Assembly (NCBI GenBank): GCA_017983615.1
Contig: JAGOBB010000020.1
Location: 1 to 38,804 of the forward strand
Reading direction: 5' to 3'
Source: Azonexus sp.
GTDB taxonomy: Bacteria > Pseudomonadota > Gammaproteobacteria > Burkholderiales > Rhodocyclaceae
DNA: 38,804 bases
The notes below the pieces were generated by a model. That model did no database searches, was not told the DNA's origin, and saw only the letters and a list, made by a program, of their open reading frames with translations. The first letter of the stretch is position 1. Each line of letters opens with the position of its first letter. This document shows, piece after piece, positions 1,998 through 28,071 of the stretch. The position numbers were made by a program, and so were the translations under genes.

Positions 1998-2039
1998 ATT
2001 TTTTGATTTTGGGCATTTTTTCCGGCCGACCGTAGCATT
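1998..2039 (-). repeat. Dispersed short repeat, copy 1 (intergenic)
   Basis: On the minus strand the copy reads AATGCTACGGTCGGCC, then an A-run and GCCCAAAATCAAAAAA. This almost matches copy 2 at 28032-28071 base for base. It lies between the lipoprotein stop at 1971 and the terminator of the minus-strand small lipoprotein gene. Repeat content aside, nothing else is seen in 1972-2132. Confidence 0.8.
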
Positions 2040-2132
2040 CCGGTTGCGGACGGTTCAGCCACTACGCTCGGGCGTATTGGCTCGCCGGCATCGCTGTCTG
2101 GCCTCGCTTGAGCACGGCGGAATTTTCAGCAC

Positions 2133-2162
2133 CAAAAAACGCCGCCCTGAAAGGCGGCGTCG
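2133..2162 (-). terminator. Rho-independent terminator of the 82-residue lipoprotein gene
   Basis: On the minus strand, ACGCCGCC and GGCGGCGT form a GC-rich stem around the loop TTTCA, followed by TTTTTTGG. It lies about 20 bases after the minus-strand stop at 2181. Confidence 0.85.
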
Positions 2163-2180
2163 CGTGACGGTAGCGCAGGC

Positions 2181-2429
2181 TTAGTGCTTGGCGCCCATCC
2201 ACTGGGCATTCTTGCCATCGCTGGTCTTTTCGCAGACGACATTGACGCCGGAGATCGCAGCCTTGGTGCCGACATCCATGAACTGGCCGGCGTCGCCGTT
2301 CCAGCATTGCGGGGCTTTGGCGGCCGGCGCTGCCGTAGCGGCAGCCGGTGCAGGGGCGGGGGTCGGAGCCTGGCTGGCGCAGGCGGTCAGGCCGAGGGCG
2401 ATGGCGGATGTGGCGAGGAAGGTACGCAT
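2181..2429 (-). CDS. Small alanine/proline-rich lipoprotein
   Basis: The product is 82 residues and begins MRTFLATSAIALGLTAC, a lipoprotein signal with lipobox LTAC (Cys17). An Ala/Pro linker (residues about 18-40, APTPAPAPAAATAAP) leads into a short C-terminal domain with two cysteines (PQCWNGD and VVCEKT) that could pair in the periplasm. AGGAG on the minus strand 6 bases before the ATG supports the start. It is a single gene with its own terminator. The family is not recognised; it is probably a surface or periplasm-tethered protein of unknown role. Confidence 0.72.
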   Translation of the reverse strand: MRTFLATSAIALGLTACASQAPTPAPAPAAATAAPAAKAPQCWNGDAGQFMDVGTKAAISGVNVVCEKTSDGKNAQWMGAKH

Positions 2430-2652
2430 GGAATTCTCCTGAATGGGTTTGTGACAGCAACGGGAGGATTCTCTTACGCCGATGTTTCAGTTTCGTTGCA
2501 GTCTGCCAATCGCATCGTTCTGGAACTGTTTTCGAACACGACGCCCTAAGACATGTGCAAGGTATAGAATCCGCCAGCGCCAGCCAATTTTCGGCTCGTC
2601 AGACCGGCGCCACCCGCCACATCACACGATTTCTCAGAAGGGAGATCAAGGT

Positions 2653-3099
2653 ATGCCAGCAGTCAGGCAAGAAGCCGTCGAAAGAATGCGGCGGGACCAC
2701 GCGCACATGCTGGAACTGATCCAGCGCATCGTTGCGCATTGCGACCAGCGCGAGCGGATAGTCAGCTGCAATGATTGCAACTCCGGTCAGAAACTGGTCT
2801 GCCACGGCAATATCGAACAATTGATCCGGACCTTCGTCGAAATGACCTTGAAGCACAATCTGGTCGAATCGATGTTCATGGAAGAGATCGCCCCGAGTGC
2901 GCACCGCGTTGCCCACAATCAGGCGCACATGGACATTGCCCGGCAATTGAAGGAGATACGGGTGGTGTTTTTCGCGGACGGCAACGGCATTCAGGCTATC
3001 GAAGGCATCGACCGGGTCCGGCAAACCCTGATGGAGCATTTCAGGGACCACGACCAGCAGCTGGAAGCTTACCTCGCTGCCACGGCCGAAACCGGGTGA
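2653..3099 (+). CDS. Hemerythrin-like metal-binding protein
   Basis: The product is 148 residues. ATG 2653 is chosen over the upstream open frame because a GGGAG ribosome site lies before it. The di-iron ligand pattern of bacteriohemerythrins can be traced: His16/His18, His68-x3-Glu72, His88-x3-His92 and His129-x4-Asp134. An extra cysteine pair (CNDC, residues 39-42) and Cys50 are not part of the standard fold. Such proteins bind O2 or NO, or sense oxygen in microaerobic bacteria. There is no membrane segment, so it acts in the cytoplasm. It stands alone between a lipoprotein and a HlyIII gene. Confidence 0.8.
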   Translation: MPAVRQEAVERMRRDHAHMLELIQRIVAHCDQRERIVSCNDCNSGQKLVCHGNIEQLIRTFVEMTLKHNLVESMFMEEIAPSAHRVAHNQAHMDIARQLKEIRVVFFADGNGIQAIEGIDRVRQTLMEHFRDHDQQLEAYLAATAETG

Positions 3100-3146
3100 T
3101 GCCGGCCGGCCATCGGGCACCCCATCGGTAGCCCCAGAGCCCAGCG

Positions 3147-3764
3147 ATGTACCCCGGAGAACGCTTCAATGCCTGGACGCACCTGATCGGTGCCCTGGCC
3201 GCGCTGACCGGGGCCATCTGGCTGATCGTCGCCGCCGCTGCAAGCGGCGACCTGCTCAAGACTGCCAGCGTAACGGTCTATGGCCTGACGCTGGTCATGC
3301 TCTACAGCATCTCGACCCTCTATCACAGCGTCCGCGGCCGGCTGAAGCGGGTGTTGCGCAAGCTCGACCACCTGTCGATCTACCTGCTGATCGCCGGCAG
3401 CTACACGCCCTTCTGCCTGATCAGCCTGCGCGGCACCTGGGGCTGGTCGCTGTTCGGCATCGTCTGGACGCTGGCGGCGATTGGCATGGCGCAGGAAATC
3501 AAGCCGCGCTCGGAAGCCCGCGTGCTGTCGCTGGTCATCTACGCGGTGATGGGCTGGATCGTGCTGATCGCCATCAAGCCGCTGATCGCCAGCATCGGCC
3601 TGGCCGGCTTTCTGTGGCTGGCCGCGGGCGGGCTGTTCTACACAGTCGGCATCGTCTTTTTCACCTTTGACGAGCGTTACCGGCACTGGCACGGCATCTG
3701 GCACCTGTTCGTGATCGCCGGCAGCCTGTCGCATTTCATCGCCATCCTGTTCTACGTCGTCTGA
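3147..3764 (+). CDS. HlyIII/PAQR-family integral membrane protein (TrhA-like)
   Basis: The product is 205 residues with about seven hydrophobic segments. The family metal-site motifs are visible: Ser56-x3-His60 (STLYH), an Asp in KLDHLSIY, and the C-terminal HGIWHLFV. Length and topology are typical for bacterial hemolysin III homologues, which are membrane-homeostasis proteins and not true haemolysins. It starts 47 bases after the hemerythrin-like gene, so the two could be co-transcribed. Confidence 0.85.
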   Translation: MYPGERFNAWTHLIGALAALTGAIWLIVAAAASGDLLKTASVTVYGLTLVMLYSISTLYHSVRGRLKRVLRKLDHLSIYLLIAGSYTPFCLISLRGTWGWSLFGIVWTLAAIGMAQEIKPRSEARVLSLVIYAVMGWIVLIAIKPLIASIGLAGFLWLAAGGLFYTVGIVFFTFDERYRHWHGIWHLFVIAGSLSHFIAILFYVV

Positions 3765-3806
3765 TTCGGCGAAAATGCCGGCTGGCTATTTCCGACAAAA
3801 GCAGAC

Positions 3807-4427
3807 ATGCGGTATCAGGGACGGATCACGAACTGGAAGGACGAGCAGGGCTACGGCTTCGTCACGCCCAACGGCGGTGGCGAGCCGGTTTTTCTGCACA
3901 TCAAGGCCTTTTCCGGACGACAGCCCCGGCCGGTCGGCGATGAAATCGTCACCTACGAGCTGAGCACGGACGCCCGCGGCCGTCCGCGCGCCACCGCCGT
4001 CCAGTTCGTCCGCGGCACTGGGCGAAAGCCGCCCGTCGCCAGCAACGCGCCCAGCCGCTGGCCCCTGGCGCTGGTCGCGCTGGTTTTTACCCTTTTGGCA
4101 GGGGCGACCGTAGCAAATCGGCTGCCCATCACTGTGGTCGCCCTCTACGCCTGCGCCAGCCTGATCGCCTTCATCACCTACGCCCTCGACAAAGCGGCCG
4201 CCCGCGCCGGGCGCTGGCGTACCCAGGAAAGCACACTGCACCTGCTGGCGCTGATCGGCGGCTGGCCAGGCGCGCTGCTGGCCCAGCGGCAGTTTCGCCA
4301 CAAGACGGCGAAGGCGTCCTTCCTGGTTATCTTCTGGGCCACCGTCCTGTTCAACTGCGGCGCTCTCGGCTGGCTGCTGACGGCGAACGGCAGCCTGGCC
4401 CTGCGCGCAGCCCTTGGCGCCGGCTGA
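3807..4427 (+). CDS. Cold-shock domain / DUF1294 fusion membrane protein
   Basis: The product is 206 residues. Residues 1-67 form a cold-shock-type OB fold: GRITNWKDEQGYGFVTP contains the RNP1-like motif, and VFLHIKAF is the RNP2-like segment. After a short linker come about four hydrophobic helices of the DUF1294 module, with the family signature YALDKAAARAGRWRTQE and later GGWPGAL and RQFRHKT. This fusion architecture is known in proteobacteria, but its role is unresolved; it presumably couples nucleic-acid binding to the membrane. The first membrane helix (VALVFTLLAGATVANRL) is partly encoded by a copy of the dispersed repeat at 4081-4118. It converges with nifF; the stops are adjacent (4427/4428). 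Confidence 0.85.
   Translation: MRYQGRITNWKDEQGYGFVTPNGGGEPVFLHIKAFSGRQPRPVGDEIVTYELSTDARGRPRATAVQFVRGTGRKPPVASNAPSRWPLALVALVFTLLAGATVANRLPITVVALYACASLIAFITYALDKAAARAGRWRTQESTLHLLALIGGWPGALLAQRQFRHKTAKASFLVIFWATVLFNCGALGWLLTANGSLALRAALGAG
4081..4118 (-). repeat. Dispersed short repeat, copy 3 (inside CSD/DUF1294 gene)
   Basis: The minus strand reads TTTGCTACGGTCGCCCC, then CCAAAAGGGTAAAAACC: one mismatch in the 13-base core, with the spacing of GC block and A-rich tail retained. Translated on the plus strand it gives VFTLLAGATVAN, the first predicted membrane helix of the host protein. It is the most diverged of the clear copies. Confidence 0.6.
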
Positions 4428-4988
4428 TCAGGCTTCGGCGGTCAGTTTTTCCTGCAGCAGCGGCACCACCTGCGCCAGCCAGGCGTCGATCCGCTCGTCG
4501 GTGAACATCCCCTGCGTGCGCTGGTCGATGATCAGGCCGATGAAACGGCCATCGACTTCGGCCGCCGAGTGTTCATAGGTGTAGCCGTCGATCGGCCAGT
4601 CGCCGACGATCTCGGCACCCCAGCCCCTGAATTTCTCGACCAGCGCGAGAAGCGAGCTGCAGAAGCGGTCGGCGTAGCGTTCCTGGGCGCCAAGACCGAA
4701 GAAAGCGATGCGCTTGCCGCTGAAGTCCGGATTGACCGGCATCTGGGCGAGAAATTCCGCCCAGTTCGGCTCGAAGCAGCCGGAAACGCCGTTGCCCGGG
4801 ATTTCGCCAACGCCGTAGCTCGGCGTGCCGAGGATCAGTGCGTCGTACTTGAGCATCTCGTCCGGCGTGATGCGATTGACGTTGATGGGCTTGTCGCAGA
4901 CCTCGTCGCCCAGCTTTTTCTGCATTTTCTTGGCGATCAGGCGGGTAGTGCCGGTTTCGGTGCCGAAAAACAGGCCGATCTTGTTCAT
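4428..4988 (-). CDS. nifF: Long-chain flavodoxin, nif type
   Basis: The product is 186 residues. The N-terminal FMN phosphate loop GTETGTTRLIAK is at residues 9-20, and LILGTPSYGVGE and FFGLGAQERYAD form the two flavin-flanking loops, with the long-chain insertion present. The segment INVNRIT resembles the matching part of Azotobacter NifF. NifF donates electrons to dinitrogenase reductase, and the neighbours (nafY-like gene, sigma-54 promoters) favour this role over a general FldA. GGAGTGATTC precedes the ATG. I could not find a convincing sigma-54 promoter reading into this gene. Confidence 0.82.
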   Translation of the reverse strand: MNKIGLFFGTETGTTRLIAKKMQKKLGDEVCDKPINVNRITPDEMLKYDALILGTPSYGVGEIPGNGVSGCFEPNWAEFLAQMPVNPDFSGKRIAFFGLGAQERYADRFCSSLLALVEKFRGWGAEIVGDWPIDGYTYEHSAAEVDGRFIGLIIDQRTQGMFTDERIDAWLAQVVPLLQEKLTAEA

Positions 4989-5010
4989 GAATCACTCCTT
5001 GAAAGCGGGG

Positions 5011-5026
5011 TGGCACGCCAGTTGCA
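5011..5026 (+). promoter_or_regulatory. Sigma-54 (RpoN) promoter upstream of the 86-residue gene
   Basis: TGGCACG-N4-TTGCA is a full match to the -24/-12 consensus, with the invariant GG and GC ten bases apart. Predicted transcription start is near 5037, giving a leader of about 70 bases to the ATG at 5106. A TGT-N10-ACA NifA site was not found in the 150 bp upstream. A one-mismatch version (CGT-N10-ACA) lies downstream at 5052-5067. Confidence 0.78.
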
Positions 5027-5105
5027 CGCCCCTGAATAAACCAGCGGCCGGCGTCGACTTTGCGACACGGCCGAAGAAACCACCCCAACCCCAACGGAGT
5101 CCGCC

Positions 5106-5366
5106 ATGCCTGCCACCACCCTCGACTGCAAGGGCCAGACCGTCGCCCCGGGCGACTCGGTCCGCGTTCTCGGCATCACCCCCGACCCGGATCTCGACGA
5201 GGACGATCTCGACATGTTCATGGACATGGTCGGCGCGGTCTGCGAGGTCGAGCGCATCGACGCCGACGGCGCCGCCTGGGTGGCGGTGTGGTGGAACGGC
5301 TGCGAGGGCACGCTGATGACCCTGGTCGGGCTGGAACCGCGGCAGATGGAGAAGATGGCCGGCTGA
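5106..5366 (+). CDS. Small conserved protein under sigma-54 control, function unknown
   Basis: The product is an 86-residue acidic protein from ATG 5106, with GGAG at 5096-5099. It contains APGDSVRVLGI, an acidic run DPDLDEDDLDMFMDM, then CEVERIDADGAAWVAVWW: alternating strands that look like a small SH3-like barrel with an acidic insertion. A weak resemblance to the SH3-like start of NifZ (APGDxVRV) was noted but is not enough to name it. It sits in the nifF-nafY interval, transcribed opposite to both, and is preceded by the best sigma-54 promoter of the window. A role in nitrogenase maturation or nitrogen control is an inference from position. Confidence 0.75.
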   Translation: MPATTLDCKGQTVAPGDSVRVLGITPDPDLDEDDLDMFMDMVGAVCEVERIDADGAAWVAVWWNGCEGTLMTLVGLEPRQMEKMAG

Positions 5367-5367
5367 C

Positions 5368-6105
5368 TCACTCGTCGACCTCGGCGGCGCTGTAGTTTTT
5401 CAGCCGCTTCTCGGCCGCGACGCCAAGTATCTTCAGCAGCCAGGGCGGCGGCGATTCGACCATGGCCACCTGGAAGGGCTTCAGGATGTCGAGTGCCGGC
5501 CCGCCGTCGGGAATCTTGATCGGATAGATGTCGGCGCGGATCACCTTGGCCGCCGCCGGACCGCCAATCGACACCACGTAGCAGACGTGACAATCGCCGA
5601 TCAGCCGGGCGCGCCACAGGTTCTTGTCGTCCGAAAACTCGGCATCCATGGTGTCGCGGATATCGACCAGCCGGATTTCGCTCGGTGACACCTGATAGAC
5701 CAGAAAGCGCAGGCAGGAGCCGAAATGGCCGGACAGCGTGTCGCCCTTGTCGGACGCGATGGCGACGCGCACCGAGCCGGGCATCTCGCCATCTTCGTAG
5801 GACTCGATCTTGGGCAGCGAATCGTCGCCCTGCGTTTCGCCCCACAGGATGCGCACGGCCAGCTTCATCGCCTCCAGGCCGATGCCGATATCCTCGCCAT
5901 CCTCCTCGCCGTCGGCGCTGGCGAAGCCGGTCTTCAGCATCGTGACGGTCACCTGGCGCAGCTTTTCCTCGTCGATTTCCTCGCCGAGACGGCGCTGCAA
6001 CAACTCGATCAGTGCCGGCAGGCTGGCATTGGGCATGGCGCGGGCGGCCAGCGCAATGCGCAGCGCCGCCTCGCGCGTGACCGGCGGTTTCCTGGATTCG
6101 TCCAT
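5368..6105 (-). CDS. nafY: NafY/NifX-family nitrogenase cofactor carrier
   Basis: The product is 245 residues in two parts. Residues about 8-90 form a helical domain like the N-terminus of Azotobacter NafY, which contacts apo-dinitrogenase. Residues about 110-235 form a NifX/NifB-C-like domain: VRVAIASDKGDTLSGHFGSC, then VYQVSPSEIRLVDIRD and later ILKPFQVAMVE. His127 in SGHFGSC is the probable counterpart of the FeMo-cofactor ligand of NafY. The family holds FeMo-co during insertion into the MoFe protein. It has its own sigma-54 promoter and a NifA site. The stop codon is one base away from the convergent 86-residue gene. NifY is the alternative name for this type; the distinction cannot be made from one gene. 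Confidence 0.82.
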   Translation of the reverse strand: MDESRKPPVTREAALRIALAARAMPNASLPALIELLQRRLGEEIDEEKLRQVTVTMLKTGFASADGEEDGEDIGIGLEAMKLAVRILWGETQGDDSLPKIESYEDGEMPGSVRVAIASDKGDTLSGHFGSCLRFLVYQVSPSEIRLVDIRDTMDAEFSDDKNLWRARLIGDCHVCYVVSIGGPAAAKVIRADIYPIKIPDGGPALDILKPFQVAMVESPPPWLLKILGVAAEKRLKNYSAAEVDE

Positions 6106-6188
6106 GGTTTTCTCCGTTGTTGGGGTTGGGGGGGTTATGCTTTATCGGTGGCCAGCCCCGCAAATGGCGACGCCGGCCACCTTCCCCT

Positions 6189-6204
6189 TGCAGAGATGGT
6201 GCCA
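6189..6204 (-). promoter_or_regulatory. Sigma-54 promoter of the nafY-like gene
   Basis: On the minus strand TGGCACC-N4-CTGCA keeps the invariant GG-N10-GC and differs from consensus at the C after TGGCAC and at the first T of TTGCA. Predicted start is near 6177, about 70 bases before the nafY ATG. CGCAAAGTCG immediately upstream (6210-6219) recurs on the other strand at 5055-5064. Confidence 0.7.
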
Positions 6205-6289
6205 GCCGACGCAAAGTCGCTAACTGCCTGATTTCACGCGGGCATGGCCCTTGCTGAATCCAGCCCAACCCCAGGAAAAATACCCCATC

Positions 6290-7984
6290 GTGTCGGATAC
6301 CTCACAAAACGCCGCCGTCCTCCTCGCCTACCACGCGCGCACCAAGCACCGCTTCGAAGCGTATGCCGAAGGCCCAGGCCAGCTCGACTGGGACGCCCAG
6401 CCGGCGGCCTTCCGCCACTACCCCGGCGCCCCGGTGCTCGAATTGCCGCTGGCGGCAAGCCGTTTCGAACAATGCTACGGTCGCCTGCAAAAAAAGCCCG
6501 AAATTGAAATCCCCCCCGACCTCGACAGCCTCGGCGCCCTGCTCGAACTGAGCTTCGGCCTATCGGCCTGGAAAACCTGGGGGCCGAACCGCTGGGCGCT
6601 GCGCAACAACCCGTCCTCGGGCAACCTGCACCCGGTCGAGGCCTACGTGCTGAGCGCCGGCCTGCCCGGCATCCCTGACGGCCTGCACCACTACGACCCG
6701 GAACAGCACGTCCTCGAAGGCCGCGCCCTGCGCCAGGCCGACGGCAGCCGGTGGCTGGCCATCGGCCTGAGCAGCGTCATGTGGCGCGAAGCCTGGAAAT
6801 ACGGCGAACGCGCCTTCCGCTACTGCCAGCTCGATGTCGGCCACGCCATCGCGACGCTGTCCTACGCCGCCGCGCTGCTCGGCTGGCAAGTCGAAGCGCT
6901 GGCCGTACCGAGCGAGACACTAGCGCAGTGCCTCGGCCTCGACCGGCCCGACGACTTTCCGCCGTCGCGCTATGCCTTCACTGAGATCGAAGAGCCGGAA
7001 ATCCTGCTCGCCATCAGCGCCCCCGGCCTCGGCGAAGTGCCAGCCGAACTCGCTGGCTGGCTGGCTGCGGCCCACTGGCAGGGACAACCAACCCGCATCG
7101 ACCCCTCGCCCGGCTACCGCTGGCCGGCCATCGACCAGGCGGCCGCGGCCAGCCGAAGGCCACCCCCAAACGCCGGAATGCTATCCCCCAAGGGGACTTC
7201 CTTCGGGGCGCGGTCGCCGGCAAAAAAAGCCCCATTTCCAAATTTTCCAGCGTTGCCAACACACGCGACGATGGCCGGCGCCATGCAGATCATCCGCCAG
7301 CGCCGCAGCGGCCAGCGTTTCGACCCAAAATGCACGCTCGACAAGGCTGCCTTCTACCGGATGCTCGACGCCACCCTGCCCCGCCCGCTGGCCCCGTTCT
7401 CCGCTCAGGAAGCCGACCCGGCCATCCACCTGCTGCTCTTCGTGCTTCGCGTCGACGGCCTGCCCCCCGGCCTCTACCTGCTGCCGCGCACGCCGGCTGC
7501 CGCGGCCACCCTGCCCGGAGAACTGGGCAAAAGCGACGACCGGTTCGCCAGCCGCTGCCCGGTTGCCAACGTCGATCCCGACTGCCCGCCCCACCTCAAC
7601 CTGACCCTTCTCGCCGCCCTCGGCCTGCCGGAAGTCCAGCGCCTGGCCCGCGCCCTCTCCTGTCACCAGGACATCGCGGCGACCAGCGCCTTCTCGCTCG
7701 GCATGCTCGGCGATTTCTCGACCATCGCCGATGACGGCTATGGCTACCGCGAGCTGCTGCGCGAAGCAGGCCTGATCGGCCAGGTGCTCTACCTCGAAGC
7801 CGAAGCCGCTGGCATCCGCGGCACCGGCATCGGCTGCTTCTTCGACGACCCGGTACACCAGGCCTTCGGCGTCGAGGGCAGCCGTTGGCAAAGCGTCTAT
7901 CACTTCACCATCGGCACACCGGTCACCGACCTCCGCATCGAAACCGGCCCGCCCTATCCCCAGCGCAATCAGGAAAACCCATGA
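6290..7984 (+). CDS. Tandem SagB/ThcOx-type nitroreductase-like dehydrogenase
   Basis: GTG 6290 gives 564 residues; the frame extends to a TTG at 6251 but without a ribosome site (AGGA at 6273-6276 precedes the GTG, rather far at 13 bases). The first half shows the SagB-family segment WALRNNPSSGNLHPVEAYVL, then HHYDPEQHVLE and AFRYCQLDVGHA. The second half repeats the fold: MQIIRQRRSGQRFD, LPPGLYLLPR, FSLGMLGD and GIGCFFDDPVHQAFG. These are FMN-dependent oxidoreductases that oxidise azoline rings or reduce unknown substrates; no RiPP precursor or cyclodehydratase is nearby. Two copies of the dispersed repeat are translated in frame, one near residue 62 and one, with a nested hairpin, in the linker between the two halves. 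The stop overlaps the next ATG (ATGA). Confidence 0.78.
   Translation: MSDTSQNAAVLLAYHARTKHRFEAYAEGPGQLDWDAQPAAFRHYPGAPVLELPLAASRFEQCYGRLQKKPEIEIPPDLDSLGALLELSFGLSAWKTWGPNRWALRNNPSSGNLHPVEAYVLSAGLPGIPDGLHHYDPEQHVLEGRALRQADGSRWLAIGLSSVMWREAWKYGERAFRYCQLDVGHAIATLSYAAALLGWQVEALAVPSETLAQCLGLDRPDDFPPSRYAFTEIEEPEILLAISAPGLGEVPAELAGWLAAAHWQGQPTRIDPSPGYRWPAIDQAAAASRRPPPNAGMLSPKGTSFGARSPAKKAPFPNFPALPTHATMAGAMQIIRQRRSGQRFDPKCTLDKAAFYRMLDATLPRPLAPFSAQEADPAIHLLLFVLRVDGLPPGLYLLPRTPAAAATLPGELGKSDDRFASRCPVANVDPDCPPHLNLTLLAALGLPEVQRLARALSCHQDIAATSAFSLGMLGDFSTIADDGYGYRELLREAGLIGQVLYLEAEAAGIRGTGIGCFFDDPVHQAFGVEGSRWQSVYHFTIGTPVTDLRIETGPPYPQRNQENP
6291..6306 (-). promoter_or_regulatory. NifA upstream activator site (TGT-N10-ACA)
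   Basis: TGT at 6291-6293 and ACA at 6304-6306 are exactly ten bases apart, the NifA-binding consensus. It lies about 120 bases upstream of the predicted nafY transcription start, the usual position. The site overlaps the first codons of the sagB-like gene, so regulatory and coding sequence are shared here. The short motif occurs by chance, so the support is its position. Confidence 0.6.
6471..6511 (+). repeat. Dispersed short repeat, copy 4 (inside sagB-like gene)
   Basis: It reads AATGCTACGGTCGCCTGC, then an A-run and GCCCGAAATTGAAAT on the plus strand, with the full 13-base core. It is translated as QCYGRLQKKPEIEI, between the N-terminal lead and the first conserved segment of the nitroreductase fold, with no break in frame. 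Confidence 0.75.
7177..7245 (+). repeat. Dispersed short repeat, copy 7, split by a nested 27-nt hairpin
   Basis: AATGCTA (7177-7183) and CGGTCGCCGGC plus A-run, GCCCC (from 7211) are the two halves of the repeat. Between them 27 bases (7184-7210) form a hairpin: CCCCAAGG pairs with CCTTCGGGG across one bulge. 27 is a multiple of three and the host frame stays open. The encoded stretch (NAGMLSPKGTSFGARSPAKK) is low-complexity linker between the two nitroreductase halves. Confidence 0.6.
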
Positions 7985-8825: not shown

Positions 8826-8893
8826 CCGGTGAATTTTATCGGATTCATGATGCCAACCGGTAAAATAGCGCGATTACGCAATGAGGTTTTACC

Positions 8894-10693: not shown

Positions 10694-10694
10694 G

Positions 10695-10895
10695 ATGGCC
10701 GGCAGCTGGGGTTGTCCGCACGAAATCGGCGATCGCTGCACGAAGGTGAACAACCTTCCGTGCAATCCCGGCATGAAGGGCTGCGAACTCGCTGGCCGCT
10801 TCCGTTTTGCCGACGAGAGCAAGAACGAGCGCTACTGGGAAAAGAAGGCCCGGGCGCAAGCGGCGGCCAAGAACGCTCCTACCGGGGACGCATGA
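10695..10895 (+). CDS. Conserved 66-residue cysteine-containing protein
   Basis: It starts one base after the glnS stop codon and ends overlapping the next ATG (ATGA). The sequence begins MAGSWGCPHEIGDRCTKVNN and continues PCNPGMKGCELAGRF: four cysteines (positions 7, 15, 23, 29) spaced like a small metal-binding or Fe-S module, followed by a basic helical tail. Similar small proteins are, to my recollection, widespread in Betaproteobacteria but uncharacterised. Tight coupling between glnS and a DNA methyltransferase gene argues that it is real. Confidence 0.75.
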   Translation: MAGSWGCPHEIGDRCTKVNNLPCNPGMKGCELAGRFRFADESKNERYWEKKARAQAAAKNAPTGDA

Positions 10896-12061
10896 CCCGC
10901 GACGTCGCCCAACTCGGCCAGGTGTTCACGCCGCCTAATGTGGTGGACTTCATGCTGGATCTTTGCCAGAACAAGGGCCGGACGCTGGAGCCTTCGGCCG
11001 GCGACGGAGCCTTCTTCAGCACCCTGCGCGAGCGCGGCGCTGATTGTGTCGGCATCGAGATCGACCGGCGGGTCTGCCCGACGGGAGCGAAACTCGGCGA
11101 TTTCTTCGATTACCCGCTGAGCGAACAATTCGACACCATCATCGGCAACCCGCCCTACGTCCGCCTGCAGGATGTTACGGTCGGCACCAAAAAAAGGCTG
11201 AAATCGGACCTGTTCGACGGACGCAGCAACCTTTTTCTGTTCTTCATCGAAAAGTGCATCCGCCACCTGAAAGCGGGCGGCGAACTGGTTTTCATCGTGC
11301 CGCGCGAGTTCATCAAGCTGACCGCCGCCAAGAAACTGAACGCCTGGCTGGCCGAGCAGGGCAGCATCACGCATTTCTACGAAACCGGCGACGTCCGCGT
11401 CTTCGGCGACCACACACCGAACTGCGCCATTTTCCGCTTCGAGAAGGGGCGCCAGGACCGGCGCATGGCCGATGGGCGGACCTTTACCGAGGTCGATGGC
11501 CAGCTGATGTTCCTGCGCGACGATTACCGCGTACGCCTGGCCGACGTTTTCGAGGTCAAGGTTGGTGCCGTTTCCGGCGCCGACCAGATCTACACGCACC
11601 CCAAGGGCAACATGGAATTCGTCTATTCGAAGACTGTGGACACCGGCGAAACGCGGCGCATGCTGTACGGTATCAAGCACCCGCACCTCGACAAGCACAA
11701 GGCCGAACTGCTTGCCCGCCGCGTCCGTCCCTTCGACGAAAGCAACTGGTGGCAGTGGGGTCGCGCTTTTCCAATCAGCGAGCATCCGCGCATCTACGTC
11801 AATGGCCGGACGCGCAAGCCGGCGCCGTTCTTCCTGCACGACTGCAAGAGCTTCGACGGCTCCGTCCTGGCGCTATTTCCCAAGAACCGGCACATCGCGC
11901 GACGCGACCTGATCGAATGCACGATGATGCTCAATCATGAAGTCGACTGGCAGCAACTCGGCTTCGTCTGCGACGGGCGCTTCATCTTCACCCAGCGCAG
12001 CCTGCAGACCTGCCTGCTGCCGGACAAGTTTTCCCGCTATCTCCCGAAAGACTCCGCATGA
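10892..12061 (+). CDS. Orphan N6-adenine DNA methyltransferase
   Basis: The product is 389 residues from ATG 10892, overlapping the previous stop by 4 bases. S-adenosylmethionine motif I is [10 protein letters not shown] (residues about 32-41) and the adenine-specific catalytic motif is NPPY at residues 86-89 ([12 protein letters not shown]). The C-terminal part ([25 protein letters not shown]) is the target-recognition region. The layout fits Eco57I/TaqI-type gamma-class enzymes, but no endonuclease domain or partner restriction gene is present. It is embedded between housekeeping genes and coupled to pyrF, suggesting a resident epigenetic or protective role. Target sequence cannot be predicted. 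Confidence 0.85.
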
Positions 12062-13029: not shown

Positions 13030-13041
13030 TGAGGAACCACC

Positions 13042-14446: not shown

Positions 14447-15258
14447 CGCATCGCACCCTGCTCCTCGCCCTGCTGCTCGGTTACGCCGCAGGCGCCTTCG
14501 CCCTGCCCCGGCACTCGCCAGTGCCCGGCGGCGTTGCCGTCGTCGACCTCGGCCCGGCCGGCCAGACCACACCCAGCGCCCGCTGGGGCGAGCAACCGGT
14601 CGCCGTCATCCGGGAAAACGGGCGCTGGTTCGCCCTGTTCGGCATTCCGCTCGACACCCTGCCGGGCGAGTTGGAAATTGCCGTTTTTTTCGGGCCGACC
14701 GTAGCATTGCGGCAAATTCCGGTGCACATCAAGAACTACCCGGAACAACGCCTCACCATCAAGGACAAGCGCAAGGTCGAACCGAGTCCGGAAGACCTGG
14801 CCCGCATCGAGCGCGAAAAAGAAACCACCGAGGCGATCAAGCGTCGCTTCAGCGCGCCCATTCCGGATACCGCCTTCGCGCTGCCGGCCAGCGGCCCGCT
14901 GTCATCACGCTTCGGCCTGCGCCGCATCTTCAACGGCCAGCCGCGCAATCCGCACGCCGGGCTTGATGTCGCCGCTGGCACCGGCACGCCGGTCAAGGCG
15001 CCGGCCGATGGCGTCGTCGCCAACACCGGCGACTATTTCTTCAACGGCAACACGGTGTTCGTCGACCACGGTCAGGGGCTGATCACCGCCTACATGCACC
15101 TGTCCCGCATCGATGTTCGTGCCGGACAAACGGTCAAAAAAGGCGAGTCGCTCGGCGCCATCGGCGCCACCGGCCGGGCAACCGGCCCGCACCTGCACTG
15201 GGCCGTGATCCTGAACAACACGCCGGTCGATCCCGAACTTTTTCTCGCCCGGCCGTAA
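14443..15258 (+). CDS. M23-family (LytM) peptidoglycan endopeptidase
   Basis: The start is uncertain: TTG 14443 gives a TTGA overlap with the previous stop, while GTG 14419 would add eight residues; both leave a signal peptide (LLLALLLGYAAGAFA). The C-terminal LytM domain (residues about 150-270) has the zinc ligands HAGLD and the HLHW motif, with GxG-rich strands between. A repeat copy at 14674-14708 is translated as EIAVFFGPTVA in the N-terminal domain. Expected to cleave peptide crosslinks in the periplasm or act as an amidase activator; the zinc ligands are intact, so activity is plausible. It is grouped with a metallopeptidase and a disulfide enzyme in one envelope operon. Confidence 0.85.
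   Translation: MTHRTLLLALLLGYAAGAFALPRHSPVPGGVAVVDLGPAGQTTPSARWGEQPVAVIRENGRWFALFGIPLDTLPGELEIAVFFGPTVALRQIPVHIKNYPEQRLTIKDKRKVEPSPEDLARIEREKETTEAIKRRFSAPIPDTAFALPASGPLSSRFGLRRIFNGQPRNPHAGLDVAAGTGTPVKAPADGVVANTGDYFFNGNTVFVDHGQGLITAYMHLSRIDVRAGQTVKKGESLGAIGATGRATGPHLHWAVILNNTPVDPELFLARP
14674..14708 (-). repeat. Dispersed short repeat, copy 5 (inside M23 peptidase gene)
   Basis: The minus strand reads AATGCTACGGTCGGCCCG, then A7, CGGCAATTTC. The 13-base core is exact. Translated on the plus strand it gives EIAVFFGPTVAL, the same reading frame of the element as in copy 3 (GATVA). Confidence 0.75.
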
Positions 15259-16159: not shown

Positions 16160-16178
16160 GGATGGCCCCAAAAAGCGT

Positions 16179-16839: not shown

Positions 16840-16848
16840 CGTTCGGTC

Positions 16849-18081: not shown

Positions 18082-18088
18082 GGTCTTG

Positions 18089-22353: not shown

Positions 22354-22561
22354 TCCGCTACCGCCCACCGCCCGTCGCCGCCTACAGATATGGCGGCCAT
22401 CTTCGGCGACGAGCATTCCTCCGATTGGAAACGTTATGAATTTCGGATGATATGCCATCCCGCATATTTCTGCGCATGACCATCGATCTATTTCACGCGC
22501 CAATTGGACAAAAACCCCCAATCGTTCAGAATAGGGTTCTTCGCCCCCCACCCTTAGGTCC

Positions 22562-23149: not shown

Positions 23150-23158
23150 GAAATCATC

Positions 23159-24307
23159 ATGCGCCGCATTGCTGTCATCGTTGCCGTCATCGCCCTTCTC
23201 GGGCTGGCCCTGTTCTGGTTCTCGCGCCCCAATCCCCTGCCGGTCGTCGTCAAGGATGTCGCCACGGGCAAGGTCGAGGCAACGCTGGCCAACACCCGCG
23301 CCGGCACCGTCGAGGCCTGCCAGCGCACCAAGCTGTCCACAATCATCGGTGGCCGCATCGAATACCTTGGCGTCAAGGAAGGCGACAAGGTCAAGAAGGG
23401 GCAACTGCTGCTCAAGCTGTGGAACGACGACCAGCAGGCCAACGCCGCCTTGGCCCAGGCGCAGATCACGCTGAGCGCGAAGCGTGGCGAGGAAGCCTGC
23501 ATTGCCGCAGTCAATGCTGAAAAAGAGGCCAGACGGCAAGGCGAGCTGCGCGCCAAGGGCTTCGTCTCGACCAGCAAGGAAGAAGCCGCGCGCACCGAGG
23601 CAGAAGTCCGCCGCGCCGCCTGCAACACGTCCAAGGCCGACGTCGCCCAGGCCGAGGCCAGGTTCAAGGCGACCCGCGTCGAACAGGGCCGTGTCGCCCT
23701 CTACGCCCCTTTCGACGGCACGGTCGCCAAGATCGTCGGCGAACTGGGCGAATACTCGACCCCTTCGCCCCCCGGCGTGCCGACGCCACCTGCCATCGAC
23801 CTGATCGACGACTCCTGCCTCTACGTCAAGGCGCCGATGGACGAGGTCGATGCGCCCAAGATACAGATCGGGCAGCCGGTCCGCATCACGCTCGACGCCC
23901 TGCCCGGCAAGGTCTTGCCCGGCAAGGTGCGACGCGTCGCGCCCTATGTCTCGGCCGTGGAAAAACAGGCGCGCACGGTCGACATCGAGGTCGACTTCGA
24001 CAACCCGGCCGAGGCCGGCAAGCTGCTGGTCGGCTACAGCGCCGATGTCGAGATCATCCTGGCCGGCCGCGACAACGTATTGCGCATCCCGACCGCAGCC
24101 ATCCAGGAAGGCGGCAAGGTGCTGGTCTTCAATGCCGACAGCGGCAAGCTGGAACAGCGGCCGATCAAGGCCGGGCTGGCCAACTGGGAATACACGGAAG
24201 TGCTGGAAGGCTTGCAGGCCGGCGAGCGCATTGTCACTTCGCTCGACAAGGAAGGTATCAAGGCTGGCGCCAAGGTGACGCCGGACGACAAGACCAAGGC
24301 CAAGTAG
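23159..24307 (+). CDS. Periplasmic adaptor (HlyD/MacA-like) of ABC efflux system
   Basis: The product is 382 residues. It begins with an N-terminal anchor helix (MRRIAVIVAVIALLGLALFWF), a lipoyl-type half (GGRIEYLGVKEGDKVKKGQLLLKL) and a long helical hairpin (residues about 95-165, Ala/Gln/Glu-rich). The other lipoyl half (ALYAPFDGTVAKIVGELGEY) and the beta-barrel and membrane-proximal domains (TAAIQEGGKVLVFN) follow. It bridges the inner-membrane ABC transporter and an outer-membrane channel; no TolC homologue is in the window. GGAA is 8 bases before the ATG. The substrate is unknown. Confidence 0.88.
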   Translation: MRRIAVIVAVIALLGLALFWFSRPNPLPVVVKDVATGKVEATLANTRAGTVEACQRTKLSTIIGGRIEYLGVKEGDKVKKGQLLLKLWNDDQQANAALAQAQITLSAKRGEEACIAAVNAEKEARRQGELRAKGFVSTSKEEAARTEAEVRRAACNTSKADVAQAEARFKATRVEQGRVALYAPFDGTVAKIVGELGEYSTPSPPGVPTPPAIDLIDDSCLYVKAPMDEVDAPKIQIGQPVRITLDALPGKVLPGKVRRVAPYVSAVEKQARTVDIEVDFDNPAEAGKLLVGYSADVEIILAGRDNVLRIPTAAIQEGGKVLVFNADSGKLEQRPIKAGLANWEYTEVLEGLQAGERIVTSLDKEGIKAGAKVTPDDKTKAK

Positions 24308-24311
24308 GCGC

Positions 24312-25031
24312 ATGGCGCTGATCGAACTCTCCGGCATCGAGCGTCGCTTCCAGCTTGGCGACACCACGGTCAATGCACTGGCCGGGCTGAACCTGCAGAT
24401 CGCGGCCGGCGAATACGTCGCCGTGATGGGTCCCTCCGGCTCCGGCAAGTCGACGCTGCTCAACCTGCTCGGCCTGCTTGACCGGCCGAACGCCGGCACC
24501 TACAAGCTCGAAGGCCGCGATGTCACGACCCTGTCGCCCGATGAACAGGCTACCGTGCGCAGCACACGGATCGGTTTCGTCTTCCAGAGTTTCCACCTGG
24601 TACCGCGCCTGACGGCCGCCGAGAACATCGCGCTGCCGATGACCCTGGCCGGCATTCCGCCCGCCGAGCGCAACCTGCGCGTCACCCAGGCGCTCAAGGA
24701 TTTCGGCCTGGAAAACCGCGCCGACCACAAGCCGGATGAACTTTCCGGCGGCCAGCGCCAGCGCGTCGCCATCGCCCGGGCCACCATCATGCAGCCAGCG
24801 CTGATTCTGGCCGACGAGCCGACTGGCAATCTGGACCGCCACACCGGGGATGAAGTGGTGCACCTACTTGAAGCCCTCAATGCCACCGGCGTCACGCTGA
24901 TCGTGGTTACTCACGACCCGGCCCTCGGTGCTCGCGCCGGCCGCCAGCTGGTCATGGAAGACGGGCGCCTGAAATCGGACTCGGGCGTCGCCAATAAGTC
25001 GGTTTTTGCCGAAATTTCGGGCCGACCGTAG
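24312..25031 (+). CDS. ABC transporter ATPase (MacB/LolD type)
   Basis: The product is 239 residues. Walker A is GPSGSGKST (residues about 38-46), the signature is LSGGQRQRVAIARA, and Walker B is LILADEPTGNLD, with switch His in VVTHDPAL. This class energises FtsX-type permeases such as MacB, LolCDE or SalY. The C-terminus is unusual: the last 11 residues (about KSVFAEISGRP) and the stop codon TAG come from a copy of the dispersed repeat, so the natural end of the protein seems to have been replaced or extended. It is operonic with the two permease genes that follow. Confidence 0.92.
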   Translation: MALIELSGIERRFQLGDTTVNALAGLNLQIAAGEYVAVMGPSGSGKSTLLNLLGLLDRPNAGTYKLEGRDVTTLSPDEQATVRSTRIGFVFQSFHLVPRLTAAENIALPMTLAGIPPAERNLRVTQALKDFGLENRADHKPDELSGGQRQRVAIARATIMQPALILADEPTGNLDRHTGDEVVHLLEALNATGVTLIVVTHDPALGARAGRQLVMEDGRLKSDSGVANKSVFAEISGRP

Positions 25032-25035
25032 CATT
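24998..25035 (-). repeat. Dispersed short repeat, copy 6 (forms the 3' end of the ATPase gene)
   Basis: The minus strand reads AATGCTACGGTCGGCCCG, then AAATTTCGGCAAAAACCGAC. The core is exact. On the plus strand CCG-TAG of the core ends the ATPase frame, and the preceding codons give SVFAEISGRP. Confidence 0.75.
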
Positions 25036-25054
25036 TGCCGCGCAGCCCCCGCCC

Positions 25055-26263
25055 ATGCGCCTGACCGACACCCTCCGCTTCGCCCGCGACGCCGCCACCG
25101 GCACCCCGCTGCGCACGCTGCTCTCGGTGCTCGCCATGTCGATCGGCGTTGCCGCTGTCGTCATCCTGACCGCTCTCGGCGATGGCGCCCGGCGCTATGT
25201 CGTCGGCCAGTTCTCGTCGCTCGGCACCAATCTGGTCATCGTGCTACCCGGTCGCTCTGGCACCGGCGGTTTCAATCCGGCCAACGCCATCACCACCACA
25301 CCGCGCGACCTGACCATCGACGATGCCGCCAGCCTGCGCCGCCTGCCCGGCGTCCGCCGCGTCGCGCCGCTCGCCGTCGGCACCTCGGAAATCGCCTTCG
25401 GTGGCCGCCTGCGCGAAGCCATGGTTGCCGGATCGACGGCGGAATTCATCCCGATCCGCAATTTCGAGCTGGCGCAAGGACAAGGCCTGCCCGAGGAGGA
25501 CTGGAATCGAGGCTCATCGGTCGCCGTCATCGGCGCCAAGATCCGTGAGGAAATGTTTGGCAGCCAGCCGGCCATCGGCCAGCTGGTGCGCGTCGGCGAC
25601 CGGCGGCTGCGCATCGTCGGCGTGCTGAAGTCCACCGGCCAGGGGCTGGGCATGAATACCGACGAACTGGTCATCGTCCCCGTCTCGCTGGCTCAGGCGA
25701 TGTTCAATTCGAACACGCTGTTCCGCGTCATGGTCGAGGCCAGCAACCGCGATGCCATCGCCGGCGCCAAGGAACGGACATTGGCCACACTGAAGCAGCG
25801 TCATCGCGGCGAGGAGGACGTCACGGTGATCACCCAGGATGCCGTGCTGGCCACCTTCGACCGCCTGCTCGGCACCCTGACCCTTGGCGTCGCCGGCATT
25901 GCCGCGATCAGCCTGGCGGTGGCCGGCATCCTGGTCATGAACGTCATGCTCGTCGCCGTCACCCAGCGCACCGGCGAAATCGGGCTGCTCAAGGCGCTCG
26001 GCGCCACGGCGCGGACCATCCGCCTGGCCTTCCTGGCCGAGGCGGCGATGCTTTCGGCCGTTGGCGCGCTGGTCGGCTACCTGCTCGGCCAACTCGGCGC
26101 CTTTGCGCTGCGCCAGTTCTTCCCGGTCTTTCCGGCCTACCCGCCGGACTGGGCGGTGATCGCCGGACTGTGCACCGCTCTGGTCACCGGCCTGCTGTTC
26201 GGGGTCATGCCGGCCCGCCGCGCCGCCCGGCTCGATCCGGTACAAGCCCTGATGAAGCACTGA
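25055..26263 (+). CDS. ABC permease, FtsX/MacB family (first of two)
   Basis: The product is 402 residues. It has an N-terminal membrane helix (LRTLLSVLAMSIGVAAVVILTALG), then a large periplasmic MacB_PCD-type domain (residues about 45-250; IVLPGRSGTGGFNPAN and DRRLRIVGVLKSTGQGLGMN). Three C-terminal helices follow, with the FtsX signature RTGEIGLLKALGATARTI and RRAARLDPVQALMKH at the end. It works as a heterodimer with the next protein, with a gap of one base between them. The export substrate is unknown. Confidence 0.9.
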   Translation: MRLTDTLRFARDAATGTPLRTLLSVLAMSIGVAAVVILTALGDGARRYVVGQFSSLGTNLVIVLPGRSGTGGFNPANAITTTPRDLTIDDAASLRRLPGVRRVAPLAVGTSEIAFGGRLREAMVAGSTAEFIPIRNFELAQGQGLPEEDWNRGSSVAVIGAKIREEMFGSQPAIGQLVRVGDRRLRIVGVLKSTGQGLGMNTDELVIVPVSLAQAMFNSNTLFRVMVEASNRDAIAGAKERTLATLKQRHRGEEDVTVITQDAVLATFDRLLGTLTLGVAGIAAISLAVAGILVMNVMLVAVTQRTGEIGLLKALGATARTIRLAFLAEAAMLSAVGALVGYLLGQLGAFALRQFFPVFPAYPPDWAVIAGLCTALVTGLLFGVMPARRAARLDPVQALMKH

Positions 26264-26264
26264 C

Positions 26265-27467
26265 ATGCTGGTCGCCGACTCACTCCAGCTCGCCACCCGC
26301 GCCATCACCGCCCAGCGCCTGCGCAGCTTCCTGACCCTGCTCGGCATCGCCGTCGGCATTGCGGCAGTAATCCTGCTCACCTCCATCGGCGAAGGCATTC
26401 ATCGCTTCGTACTCAGCGAATTCAGCCAGTTCGGCACCAACGTCGTCGGCGTCCACCCCGGCAAAACCAAGACCGGGGGCACTCCGCCCTCCGGCCTGCC
26501 GAGCAGCGCACGGCCACTGTCGCTCGACGACGCGCGCGCCCTGACCAGCCTGCCACACGTCGTCGGCATGACGCCGAGCATCTGGGGCAACGCCGAGGTC
26601 CGTGCCAACGGCCGCCTGCGCCGGACTTCGATCTATGGGGTCGGCCCGCAGATGCTCGAAGTCTTCAAGGGCAAGGTTCGCGCCGGGCAATTCCTGCCCC
26701 CGGACGACGCATACAGCGCCCGCGCCCTGGTCGTCCTCGGCCCCAAGCTCAAGGATGAACTGTTCGGCGCCGAGAACGCGCTCGGCGCAAAACTTCGTAT
26801 CGGTCCCGACCAGTTCCGCGTCATCGGCATCCTCGAACCCAAGGGCCAGTTCCTCGGAATCGACCTCGACGACACCGCCTTCATCCCGGCCGCCCGCGCC
26901 CTCGAAATCTTCAACCGCGACGGCCTCAACGAAATCAACCTGGCCGCCGAGGAGGGCGTGCCCTCGGCCATCGTCGCTGCCGCCGTCAAGGAGAGGATGA
27001 TCGTCCGCCACGGCAGCGAGGATTTCACCATCGTCACCCAGGAAGAAATGATGGCCACGCTGTCCAACATCCTCAACGTGCTGACCATGGCCGTCGGCGC
27101 GCTGGGCGGCATCTCGCTGCTGGTCGGCGGCGTCGGCATCGTCACCATCATGACCATCGCCGTTACCGAACGGACCGGCGAAATCGGCCTGCTGGTCGCC
27201 CTCGGCGCCCGCCGGCGAACCATCCTCGCCCTCTTCCTCGGTGAGGCCGTCGCCCTGTCGGCACTCGGTGGCATTTTCGGGCTGATCCTCGGCATCGGCC
27301 TGGCCCAGCTGATCCATTTCGCGCTGCCGGCGCTGCCGGTCCACACGCCACTCAGCTTCGTCCTGCTTGCCGAAGGCATCGCAATCGCCATCGGTCTGGC
27401 CGCCGGCGTCCTGCCGGCTCGCCGCGCAGCCCGCCTTGACCCGGTCGAAGCCCTCCGCGCCGAGTAA
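26265..27467 (+). CDS. ABC permease, FtsX/MacB family (second of two)
   Basis: The product is 400 residues with the same layout as its upstream neighbour: N-terminal helix (LRSFLTLLGIAVGIAAVILLTSIG), periplasmic domain, and three C-terminal helices with RTGEIGLLVALGARRRTI and ending RRAARLDPVEALRAE. The two permeases probably arose by duplication but have diverged in their periplasmic domains. It starts one base after the previous stop. With the adaptor and ATPase it completes a tripartite-pump core. Confidence 0.9.
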   Translation: MLVADSLQLATRAITAQRLRSFLTLLGIAVGIAAVILLTSIGEGIHRFVLSEFSQFGTNVVGVHPGKTKTGGTPPSGLPSSARPLSLDDARALTSLPHVVGMTPSIWGNAEVRANGRLRRTSIYGVGPQMLEVFKGKVRAGQFLPPDDAYSARALVVLGPKLKDELFGAENALGAKLRIGPDQFRVIGILEPKGQFLGIDLDDTAFIPAARALEIFNRDGLNEINLAAEEGVPSAIVAAAVKERMIVRHGSEDFTIVTQEEMMATLSNILNVLTMAVGALGGISLLVGGVGIVTIMTIAVTERTGEIGLLVALGARRRTILALFLGEAVALSALGGIFGLILGIGLAQLIHFALPALPVHTPLSFVLLAEGIAIAIGLAAGVLPARRAARLDPVEALRAE

Positions 27468-27482
27468 TCCAGCCGTAACCAC

Positions 27483-27498
27483 CATACGCTAACGTATG
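27483..27498. promoter_or_regulatory. Palindrome upstream of the MaoC hydratase gene, possible operator
   Basis: CATACG-CTAA-CGTATG is a perfect six-base inverted repeat in the short, AT-richer gap between the permease stop (27467) and the next ATG (27545). It could be a repressor operator; the cognate regulator is not in the window. An overlapping promoter is likely but not clear. Confidence 0.4.
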
Positions 27499-27544
27499 CT
27501 AGAGTTAGCTTTCAAATTTCAATAGACCCGCAAGGAGCCCCGCC

Positions 27545-27982
27545 ATGTCCTATCACATCGACCAGTTGCAGCCCGGCATGTCCGCCAGCGTCGCCAAGAC
27601 CGTCACCGAAGCCGACATCATCCTGTTCGCCGGCATTTCCACCGACACCAATCCGGCCCACCTCGACGAGGAATTCGCCAAGACCACGATGTTCGGCGGT
27701 CGCATCGCCCACGGCATGCTGTCGGCCGGCTTCATCTCCGCCGTTCTGGGCAACAAGCTGCCGGGCAACGGCAGTATCTACATTTCTCAGACGCTGAAAT
27801 TCAAGGCGCCAGTGCGTCCCGGCGACACCGTGACGGCCACGGCCACGGTCAAGGAAGTCAATGTCGCCAAGAACCGGGTGACGCTCGACACCATGTGCAC
27901 AGTCGCCGGCAAGACCGTCATCGAAGGCGAATGCGTGATGATGCCGCCAGTGCGCGCCGCAGCACCGACCGGCACGGCCTGA
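27545..27982 (+). CDS. phaJ: (R)-specific enoyl-CoA hydratase, MaoC/PhaJ family
   Basis: The product is 145 residues, a single hot-dog fold. The hydratase motif is intact: FAGISTDTNPAHLDEEFA, with the catalytic Asp and His (Asp-x4-His, about residues 33-38), followed by FGGRIAHGMLSAG. GGAG precedes the ATG. It hydrates trans-2-enoyl-CoA to the (R)-3-hydroxyacyl form, feeding polyhydroxyalkanoate synthesis or a side path of fatty-acid metabolism; PhaJ is the best-known name, but the polymer link is not shown here. It is monocistronic with a perfect hairpin after the stop. Confidence 0.85.
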   Translation: MSYHIDQLQPGMSASVAKTVTEADIILFAGISTDTNPAHLDEEFAKTTMFGGRIAHGMLSAGFISAVLGNKLPGNGSIYISQTLKFKAPVRPGDTVTATATVKEVNVAKNRVTLDTMCTVAGKTVIEGECVMMPPVRAAAPTGTA

Positions 27983-27999
27983 TTCCAGCCAGCCCCAAT

Positions 28000-28029
28000 G
28001 AATAACGCCGGCATTTGCCGGCGTTATTC
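28000..28029. terminator. Perfect 13-bp hairpin after phaJ-like gene
   Basis: GAATAACGCCGGC and GCCGGCGTTATTC pair perfectly around the loop ATTT. No T-run follows, so its strength as an intrinsic terminator is unsure. It separates the convergent phaJ-like and rluF-like genes and lies directly beside repeat copy 2. Confidence 0.6.
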
Positions 28030-28031
28030 AC

Positions 28032-28071
28032 AATGCTACGGTCGGCCCCAAAAAAGGGCCAAAATCAAAAA
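28032..28071 (+). repeat. Dispersed short repeat, copy 2 (best-preserved; 3' end of rluF-like gene)
   Basis: It reads AATGCTACGGTCG, then GGCCC-CAAAAAA-GGGCC (a perfect internal palindrome), then AAAATCAAAAA. It is nearly identical in layout to copy 1. The TCA at 28065-28067 within its tail is the stop codon (TGA) of the minus-strand pseudouridine synthase gene. Confidence 0.82.

Follow-up and report, generated by a model that had tools for sequence, protein, structure and literature searches.

A dispersed motif with lineage dialects in Azonexus, a putative DNA uptake sequence of a betaproteobacterial genus

The window, the whole stretch of 38,804 nt analysed here (contig JAGOBB010000020.1 of the Azonexus sp. 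assembly GCA_017983615.1), carries within and between its genes copies of a short motif made up of a 13-nt core, AATGCTACGGTCG, and a tail of A/T tracts. The source genome of the window (2.92 Mb, 34 contigs) is denoted G000 and the genomes of its relatives by other G-numbers. A sequence-only reading of the window had described a dispersed repeat family occurring in both orientations, within and between genes, and this family is real. The five exact cores lie where that reading had placed them, and the split core it reported at 7177 is genuine, with AATGCTA (7177-7183) and CGGTCG (7211-7216) set 27 nt apart. A core near 4118 on the minus strand, credited with a single mismatch, has two and lies at 4105-4117, and a further two-mismatch copy (11171-11183) had been overlooked. 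With up to two mismatches allowed, the window holds seven matches against 0.80 expected, a number to which none of 100 shuffles got. The copies are distributed as follows:

1999..2039, minus strand: copy 1, exact core at 2027-2039, between convergent predicted genes
4077..4117, minus strand: degenerate copy, core at 4105-4117 with two mismatches, within the open reading frame 3807-4427 (plus strand)
6471..6511, plus strand: exact copy, core at 6471-6483, within a SagB-family gene
7177..7244, plus strand: split-core copy, core interrupted by 27 extra nt at 7184-7210
11171..11211, plus strand: two-mismatch copy, core at 11171-11183, within a methyltransferase-related gene
14668..14708, minus strand: exact copy, core at 14696-14708, within an M23-peptidase gene
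24995..25035, minus strand: exact copy, core at 25023-25035, just upstream of a MacB/FtsX-type permease gene
28032..28072, plus strand: exact copy, core at 28032-28044, between convergent predicted genes

Across the source genome the exact 13-mer occurs 382 times, split 193 to 189 between the strands, a density of one per 7.6 kb, whereas the reversed control word is absent; the count that the sequence-only reading had proposed as a check is thus far from the chance level at which it would have dismissed the family. Such strong over-representation of a short core throughout a genome and on both strands is characteristic of the uptake signal sequences (USS) and DNA uptake sequences (DUS). Among 60 genomes (G000 and 59 relatives), G029 possesses 201 exact copies and the remaining 58 relatives have zero to four each. 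A scan of a contig database returned, among the matches listed, at least 66 stretches, of which 55 belong to AG28 (22) or Loclat_bin-15563 (33), and the other 11 listed are single matches elsewhere, several of them in unrelated phyla. The earlier remark that the sequence was not recognised as a described family stands as well, with no Rfam match in the window and nothing on the motif among the papers listed by the literature searches.

The anatomy, location and spacing of the motif were determined in 438.7 kb of the 2.92 Mb (15%), consisting of contig C2 in full, C4 from 1 to 160 kb, C12 from 1 to 60 kb and the window. The core is nearly invariant and is followed, on its 3' side only, by A/T tracts at positions 19-24, 30-34 and 37-40, approximately one helical turn (about 11 nt) apart. 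Aligned copies have an A or a G ahead of the core, an invariant middle and GC-rich spacers between the tracts, which are mostly A and often T (A-runs exchanged for T-runs), and the same tract register is found in G002, G012 and others. The tail as first described, a GC block, an A-run, a second GC block and an A-rich end, is correct and reaches approximately position 40. Exact cores number 64 in the sample and singly mismatched ones 17, with the mismatch falling on the last base (position 13) in 12 cases, while the reversed core gives zero in both classes; an excess of perfect over singly mismatched copies is a further property of the USS/DUS class. A scan with the tail alone, at a score of at least 15, recovered 52, 10 and seven matches with zero, one and two core mismatches, none with three to five, two with six and others with eight to 12. 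The distribution indicates a much stronger constraint on the core than on the tail, which a repeat decaying neutrally would not show, and neutral decay of an old repeat is disfavoured by the lack of variants with three to five core mismatches at this score (three appear at a score of 12). As judged from these sequences, a nearly invariant core with a drifting tail is the pattern of a recognition site.

Gene calls for the sample were obtained with a crude codon model made for this analysis. The 11-mer ATGCTACGGTC occurs 80 times in the sample, with 35 copies inside predicted genes (22 on the same strand, 13 on the opposite strand), where one reading frame is favoured in each orientation (16 of 22 and 11 of 13, respectively). 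Although 85.5% of the sample is coding, 45 of the 80 copies are intergenic or only partly genic. Among intergenic spaces of at least 40 nt, a copy is present in 15 of 33 convergent, 21 of 130 tandem and seven of 49 divergent spaces (convergent versus divergent, Fisher P 0.0024). This preference for convergent spaces is what would be expected if the motif were primarily a transcription terminator or another 3'-end element, an explanation that is nonetheless very improbable given the share of copies lying within predicted genes, the occurrence of copies singly as opposed to in pairs and the A/T tracts flanking the core on one side only. A strong stem-loop with a 14-bp stem in the predicted fold (27999-28030) directly adjoins the copy at 28032, between the convergent genes, and is itself a probable terminator.

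Spacing along the chromosome is more even than random (coefficient of variation 0.70 versus 0.95, P 0.0016), which is another trait of the USS/DUS class, and only one gap of less than 1 kb separates neighbouring copies where 12.8 were expected, with as few in none of 5000 simulations. Orientation is mixed along the contigs, in keeping with the overall 193/189 balance and lacking the polarity of Chi-like sites or FtsK-orienting polar sequences (KOPS), with the replication origin unmapped. The longest motif-free gap spans 19.75 kb (C2 147281-167032, L129-L130), and the six of its 14 predicted proteins that were scanned include a phage integrase, a DUF3987 protein, trigger factor (tig) and Lon; the stretch is perhaps a recently acquired island. 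The second-longest gap, of 16.9 kb on C12, with four of 19 proteins scanned, encodes DNA polymerase III alpha, an Hsp70 and two aminotransferases, core functions in every case, and a depletion of the motif in mobile DNA is only suggestive.

Relatives possess related words in place of the exact core. In samples of approximately 58 kb per genome, the enriched words are roughly TGTTGCGGTCGACC in G008 and G020, GCAGCGGTCGAC in G063, CACGGTCGAC in G031, TGCTGCGGTC and CGCGGTCGACCG in G030 and, with the full tail in the register of G000, CCACGGTCAACCGG in G002, and the dialects of the sister species have the inner core CGGTC[G/A] in common. In samples of this size CGGTCGAC is present four times each in G035 and G018, compared with five and six occurrences of the reversed word, and the sample k-mers of G034 and G024 are unremarkable while their whole-genome counts stand out. 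It was the per-genome samples that gave the dialects, as a pooled k-mer search of orthologous regions from 17 genomes yielded conserved coding words only and no dialects.

A tailed pattern, CGGTCR-N5-W6-N5-W4, was counted over 76 species of the genus, with at least 100 copies in 16 species, 20-99 in 22 and fewer than 20 in 38, compared with zero to five per genome for the reversed control. The single-contig genomes G073, G086 and G098 hold 503, 511 and 393 tailed copies, respectively. The untailed words TGCGGTCGAC and ACGGTCAACC, counted inside the genus only, reach 1256, 895, 802, 735 and 720 copies and 581, 580, 573, 570 and 565 copies, respectively, in their top five genomes, while G000 has 39 and seven. 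The groups defined by AATGCTACGGTCG, TGCGGTCGAC and ACGGTCAACC are lineage dialects with a common inner core, as is also seen in the USS/DUS class. By thresholds set for this analysis (20 for the tailed pattern, 150 for TGCGGTCGAC, 100 for ACGGTCAACC), some form of the motif is present in 44 of the 76 species, including G095, which has 337 tailed copies, matches neither counted dialect and, lying outside the 60 genomes searched for the exact core, may carry the AATGCTACGGTCG form; genomes below all three thresholds are called motif-less here. Of 399 genomes sampled from the order, the 393 outside the genus have no more than 11 tailed matches apiece, approximately the level of the reversed control, and the seven from six other genera of the family have none; among the genomes sampled, the tailed form is confined to the genus. 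In a tree of 19 genomes based on glnS, the methyltransferase-related gene and pyrF, several nodes of which are weakly supported, the high-count G000 with G029, G002 with G003 and G012, and G034 fall among low-count species.

Different dialects occupy the same orthologous positions, as is apparent at the sites 6471, 7177 and 14696. At 6471, where seven sister genomes were aligned, G029 has the ATGCTACGGTC core, five others (G021, G020, G063, G008 and G031) have a CGGTC[G/A] dialect and G027 has neither. At the split core, G029 reads an unbroken AATGCTACGGTCA, G021, G008, G020 and G063 have their own CGGTCGAC forms, and the 27 nt at 7184-7210 are absent from the five sister genomes aligned; the number of these extra nucleotides is a multiple of three, and a similar GGGGAYTTCC..GGGGC block is found once in G029 (L143). 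At 14696, CGGTC[G/A] forms are present in 10 of the 17 sister genomes that do not share the core, all 10 of which carry some form of the motif genome-wide, and of the seven with neither form, G035, G025, G018, G027 and G016 are motif-less genome-wide, while G005 and G030 are not. At 11171, all 18 sister genomes align free of gaps and 10 of the 18 have CGGTC[G/A]AC. The copy at 25035 is common to G000 and G029, and G029 shows no motif at 28032, which, like the other intergenic site at 2027, aligned poorly. The gene that holds the copy at 11171 (10712-12061) sits between glnS and pyrF, has a tblastn match in 18 of the 18 sister genomes examined and is weakly similar, below cut-offs, to the BREX PglX and MAD2 methyltransferases.

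Repetitive extragenic palindromic (REP) sequences, the bacterial interspersed mosaic elements (BIMEs) they belong with and Rickettsia palindromic elements (RPE) are inserted or copied sequences of tens of nucleotides, dispersed in both orientations. The sequence-only reading had likened the motif to REP or RPE-type elements; the dispersed family it saw was true, and this part of its interpretation is not supported. A mobile or copied short repeat of this kind, or one resembling a miniature inverted-repeat transposable element (MITE), inserting in and between genes, would account for the high copy number and for perfect cores that resemble a young transposed family, and would be expected to leave gaps of approximately 41 nt in alignments with sister genomes. 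MAFFT alignments are instead gap-free across the in-gene copies at 6471 (seven sisters), 14696 (18 sisters) and 11171 (18 sisters, two-mismatch copy), many sisters having ordinary codons or the related CGGTC[G/A] form there, and in local alignments of these copies some rows from more distant sisters contain small gaps. Anchoring on both flanks produced 63 site-by-record pairs, among them duplicate records and paralogous pairs contributed by two copies of a palindromic element; with the duplicates and two sites inside that repeated element dropped, 48 pairs at 22 sites remained. Clean empty sites (length zero, give or take 8 nt) are lacking among the 48, so that the motif appears to arise mainly by substitution. 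Length is kept within 3 nt in 42 of the 48, the six exceptions being shorter by 12, 10 or, in one case, 57 nt, or longer by 4, 88 or 125 nt. The pairs comprise 12 with the same core, 23 with CGGTC[G/A] and 13 with neither, such that CGGTC[G/A] occupies the site in 23 of the 36 pairs that do not share the core, where approximately 0.12 would be expected per 71-nt stretch.

By these comparisons the family arises mainly without insertion, and the empty-site and alignment results, together with the presence of different dialects at the same positions and of a conserved core beside a degenerate tail, contradict a mobile repeat and nearly exclude it. Nor is the motif confined to extragenic DNA, the location of REP sequences, with 35 of 80 copies inside predicted genes. 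A single palindromic element carrying a copy of the motif is the other point in favour of mobility. This intergenic element of approximately 280 bp has long terminal inverted repeats with the motif copy in its middle, is found twice in the G000 sample (L127, C2 at approximately 101.6 kb; L135, C4 at approximately 97.5 kb) and partly in sister genomes (L052, L038 and L077), and is a candidate MITE-like or structured element. A known RNA element was rejected, as no Rfam match reached the gathering score in the window or in the four loci that hold or border the palindromic element (L127, L135, L052 and L038).

Genes compatible with natural competence are present in the source genome, including a comEC frame of 867 aa, two ComEA-type HHH matches (TIGR00426), one of them above the cut-off, and one pilin (C23:482-703) above the cut-off of the Pfam ComP_DUS family (38 bits versus 27.3), with sequence matches to general type IV pilins among PDB entries. 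TIGR00426 matches 75 of the 76 genomes of the genus but also nine of 14 control genomes, and ComEC was found in 36 of 40 genomes examined, regardless of motif count. The same genes occur in motif-rich and motif-less genomes, and the machinery is therefore compatible with uptake without being discriminating; gene presence singled out no receptor, as both the ComP_DUS pilin and ComEC are independent of motif count. The comEC gene appears split, truncated or short in G018, G035, G002, G019 and G008; G018 and G035 are motif-less, G002 is motif-rich and G008 is rich in the TGCGGTCGAC dialect.

The serious rival is a binding site for an abundant intracellular protein, such as a nucleoid organiser or a segregation or repair factor, that needs evenly placed sites, with dialects following changes in the protein. 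A near-invariant core with degenerate, phased A/T tracts would suit such a protein, as would the even spacing, the enrichment in intergenic DNA, the confinement of the tailed form to this genus among the genomes sampled and the failure of gene presence to indicate an uptake receptor. The balance of strands argues against polar use of the KOPS or Chi kind, and the sites of intracellular regulators are typically more relaxed in consensus (PMC1626085). Further, that dialects turn over and that many close relatives almost lack the motif would be unusual for an essential organiser and is familiar from uptake sequences. This intracellular role is held to be unlikely, if deserving of more weight than any other alternative.

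Based on the sequence comparisons, the repeat is best interpreted as a putative DNA uptake sequence of the USS type, to which we attach a probability of roughly 0.7. Several results weigh against it. Of the 76 species, 32 fall below all thresholds, and a comEC frame of at least 770 aa is present in no fewer than 10 of these motif-less species (among the 40 genomes examined), while the motif-rich G002 has one of only 520 aa. ComP_DUS-family pilins are present regardless of motif count in 70 of the 76 genomes (51 of the 51 good ones), and in none of the 14 controls, and with comEC behaving likewise, competence genes do not predict the motif. Two-mismatch cores number 18 in the sample versus 14 for the reversed control, and there is therefore no wide cloud of degenerate cores; lowering the tail score to 12 admits one match with three and two with five core mismatches, in a scan for which the profile was trained on core-bearing copies. 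At 25035, the G030 row falls 57 nt short and has no motif, and because 25 of the 48 flank-anchored pairs derive from two window sites (18 and seven), the pairs are not independent. The longest gap between copies is unexceptional (P 0.20), the 80 copies include no two less than 150 bp apart and no close inverted pairs, and the density in G000 is below the approximately one per kb of classical DUS and USS (PMC1626085).

We infer an uptake function, a receptor and a drive behind the putative uptake sequence that may operate as follows. The 13-nt core, with its inner CGGTC, would be bound by a surface protein with affinity for DNA, probably a minor pilin, that belongs to the type IV pilus machinery for uptake, and the A/T tracts may make it easier for the stiff DNA to be bent or opened as it meets the outer membrane. 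Self DNA on its way in would pass through ComEC and on to recombination, and because uptake and recombination would favour motif-bearing fragments, the motif would accumulate by biased recombination, selection or both, coming to spread over the chromosome at fairly even spacing. A shift in receptor specificity within a lineage would then have the motif rewritten in place, giving rise to dialects.

It is also reasonably probable, judged on the same kind of evidence, that the motif represents a third, independently evolved uptake-sequence system, belonging to a betaproteobacterial genus and distinguished by a USS-like build, at least three dialects swapped at the same sites and a patchy absence. 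A 2025 statement names the Neisseriaceae and Pasteurellaceae as the only families known to discriminate via uptake sequences, with eight DUS dialects and two USS types known (PMC12616744), and uptake sequences have been described in the terminators of the two families in a work that scanned thousands of genomes, the main text of which contains no word beginning 'rhodocycl' (PMC13020248). No uptake sequence reported for the Rhodocyclaceae or this lineage was found among the papers listed from the open-licence PMC literature, which is not proof of absence, and searches with the motif strings returned, among the matches listed, only papers that by title concern unrelated subjects. If true, a third system of this kind would mean that such a strategy of recognizing self DNA evolved more often, and a genus with 76 sampled species would constitute a natural experiment on its evolution. 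As the genus offers dialects, swaps between them at orthologous positions and species that either have or lack the motif, the roles of molecular drive versus selection, the co-evolution of receptor and motif and the identity of the protein that reads a USS-type motif all become testable questions.

Most properties of the motif have a counterpart described for USS or DUS. Compared with known systems, the motif has the build of the Pasteurellaceae USS (Hin-USS, AAGTGCGGT; Apl-USS, ACAAGCGGT), in which a near-invariant short core is also followed by A/T segments on the 3' side, approximately one helical turn apart (PMC1626085); in Hin-USS the segments are 12 nt apart, compared with about 11 nt in G000. 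Perfect copies exceed mismatched ones in the USS too, which 'are not insertions' and which comprise two lineage types built around one inner motif (PMC1626085), matching the inferred origin by substitution and the shared inner core in the genus. Unlike the USS, the G000 motif has an inner CGGTC, a third A/T tract, a lower density and several dialects in one genus. The TGCGGTCGAC dialect and the USS both contain GCGGT, by chance or convergence. By eye, the core is not identical to Hin-USS, Apl-USS or DUS as printed in PMC12616744 and PMC13020248, which do not print all eight DUS dialects. REP/BIME and Rickettsia palindromic elements resemble the motif in being dispersed, tens of nucleotides long and present in both orientations, and differ from it in that the motif lacks clean empty sites and is gap-free at its in-gene copies.

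The Neisseriaceae are betaproteobacteria, as is this genus. Their DUS likewise have several dialects with a common inner core and occur on both strands, in genes and in the spaces between them, and some members lack an obvious DUS (PMC3630211). Uptake sequences lie inside reading frames in 65% of cases in H. influenzae and 35% in N. gonorrhoeae (PMC1939737), against 35 of 80 copies in G000. DUS spacing has been linked to recombination, and DUS are absent from recently acquired genes (PMC2397512). The DUS are without flanking A/T segments (PMC1626085), have an inner CTG core (PMC12616744) and are unrelated in sequence to the motif; close inverted pairs, in which DUS and USS 'often' occur (PMC12616744), or only about 10% of them (PMC1939737), are a further difference from the G000 sample; such pairs act as terminators and are a frequent trait of the class, though not a strictly defining one. 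On sequence grounds, the USS appear closest to the motif in architecture and the DUS closer in the number of dialects.

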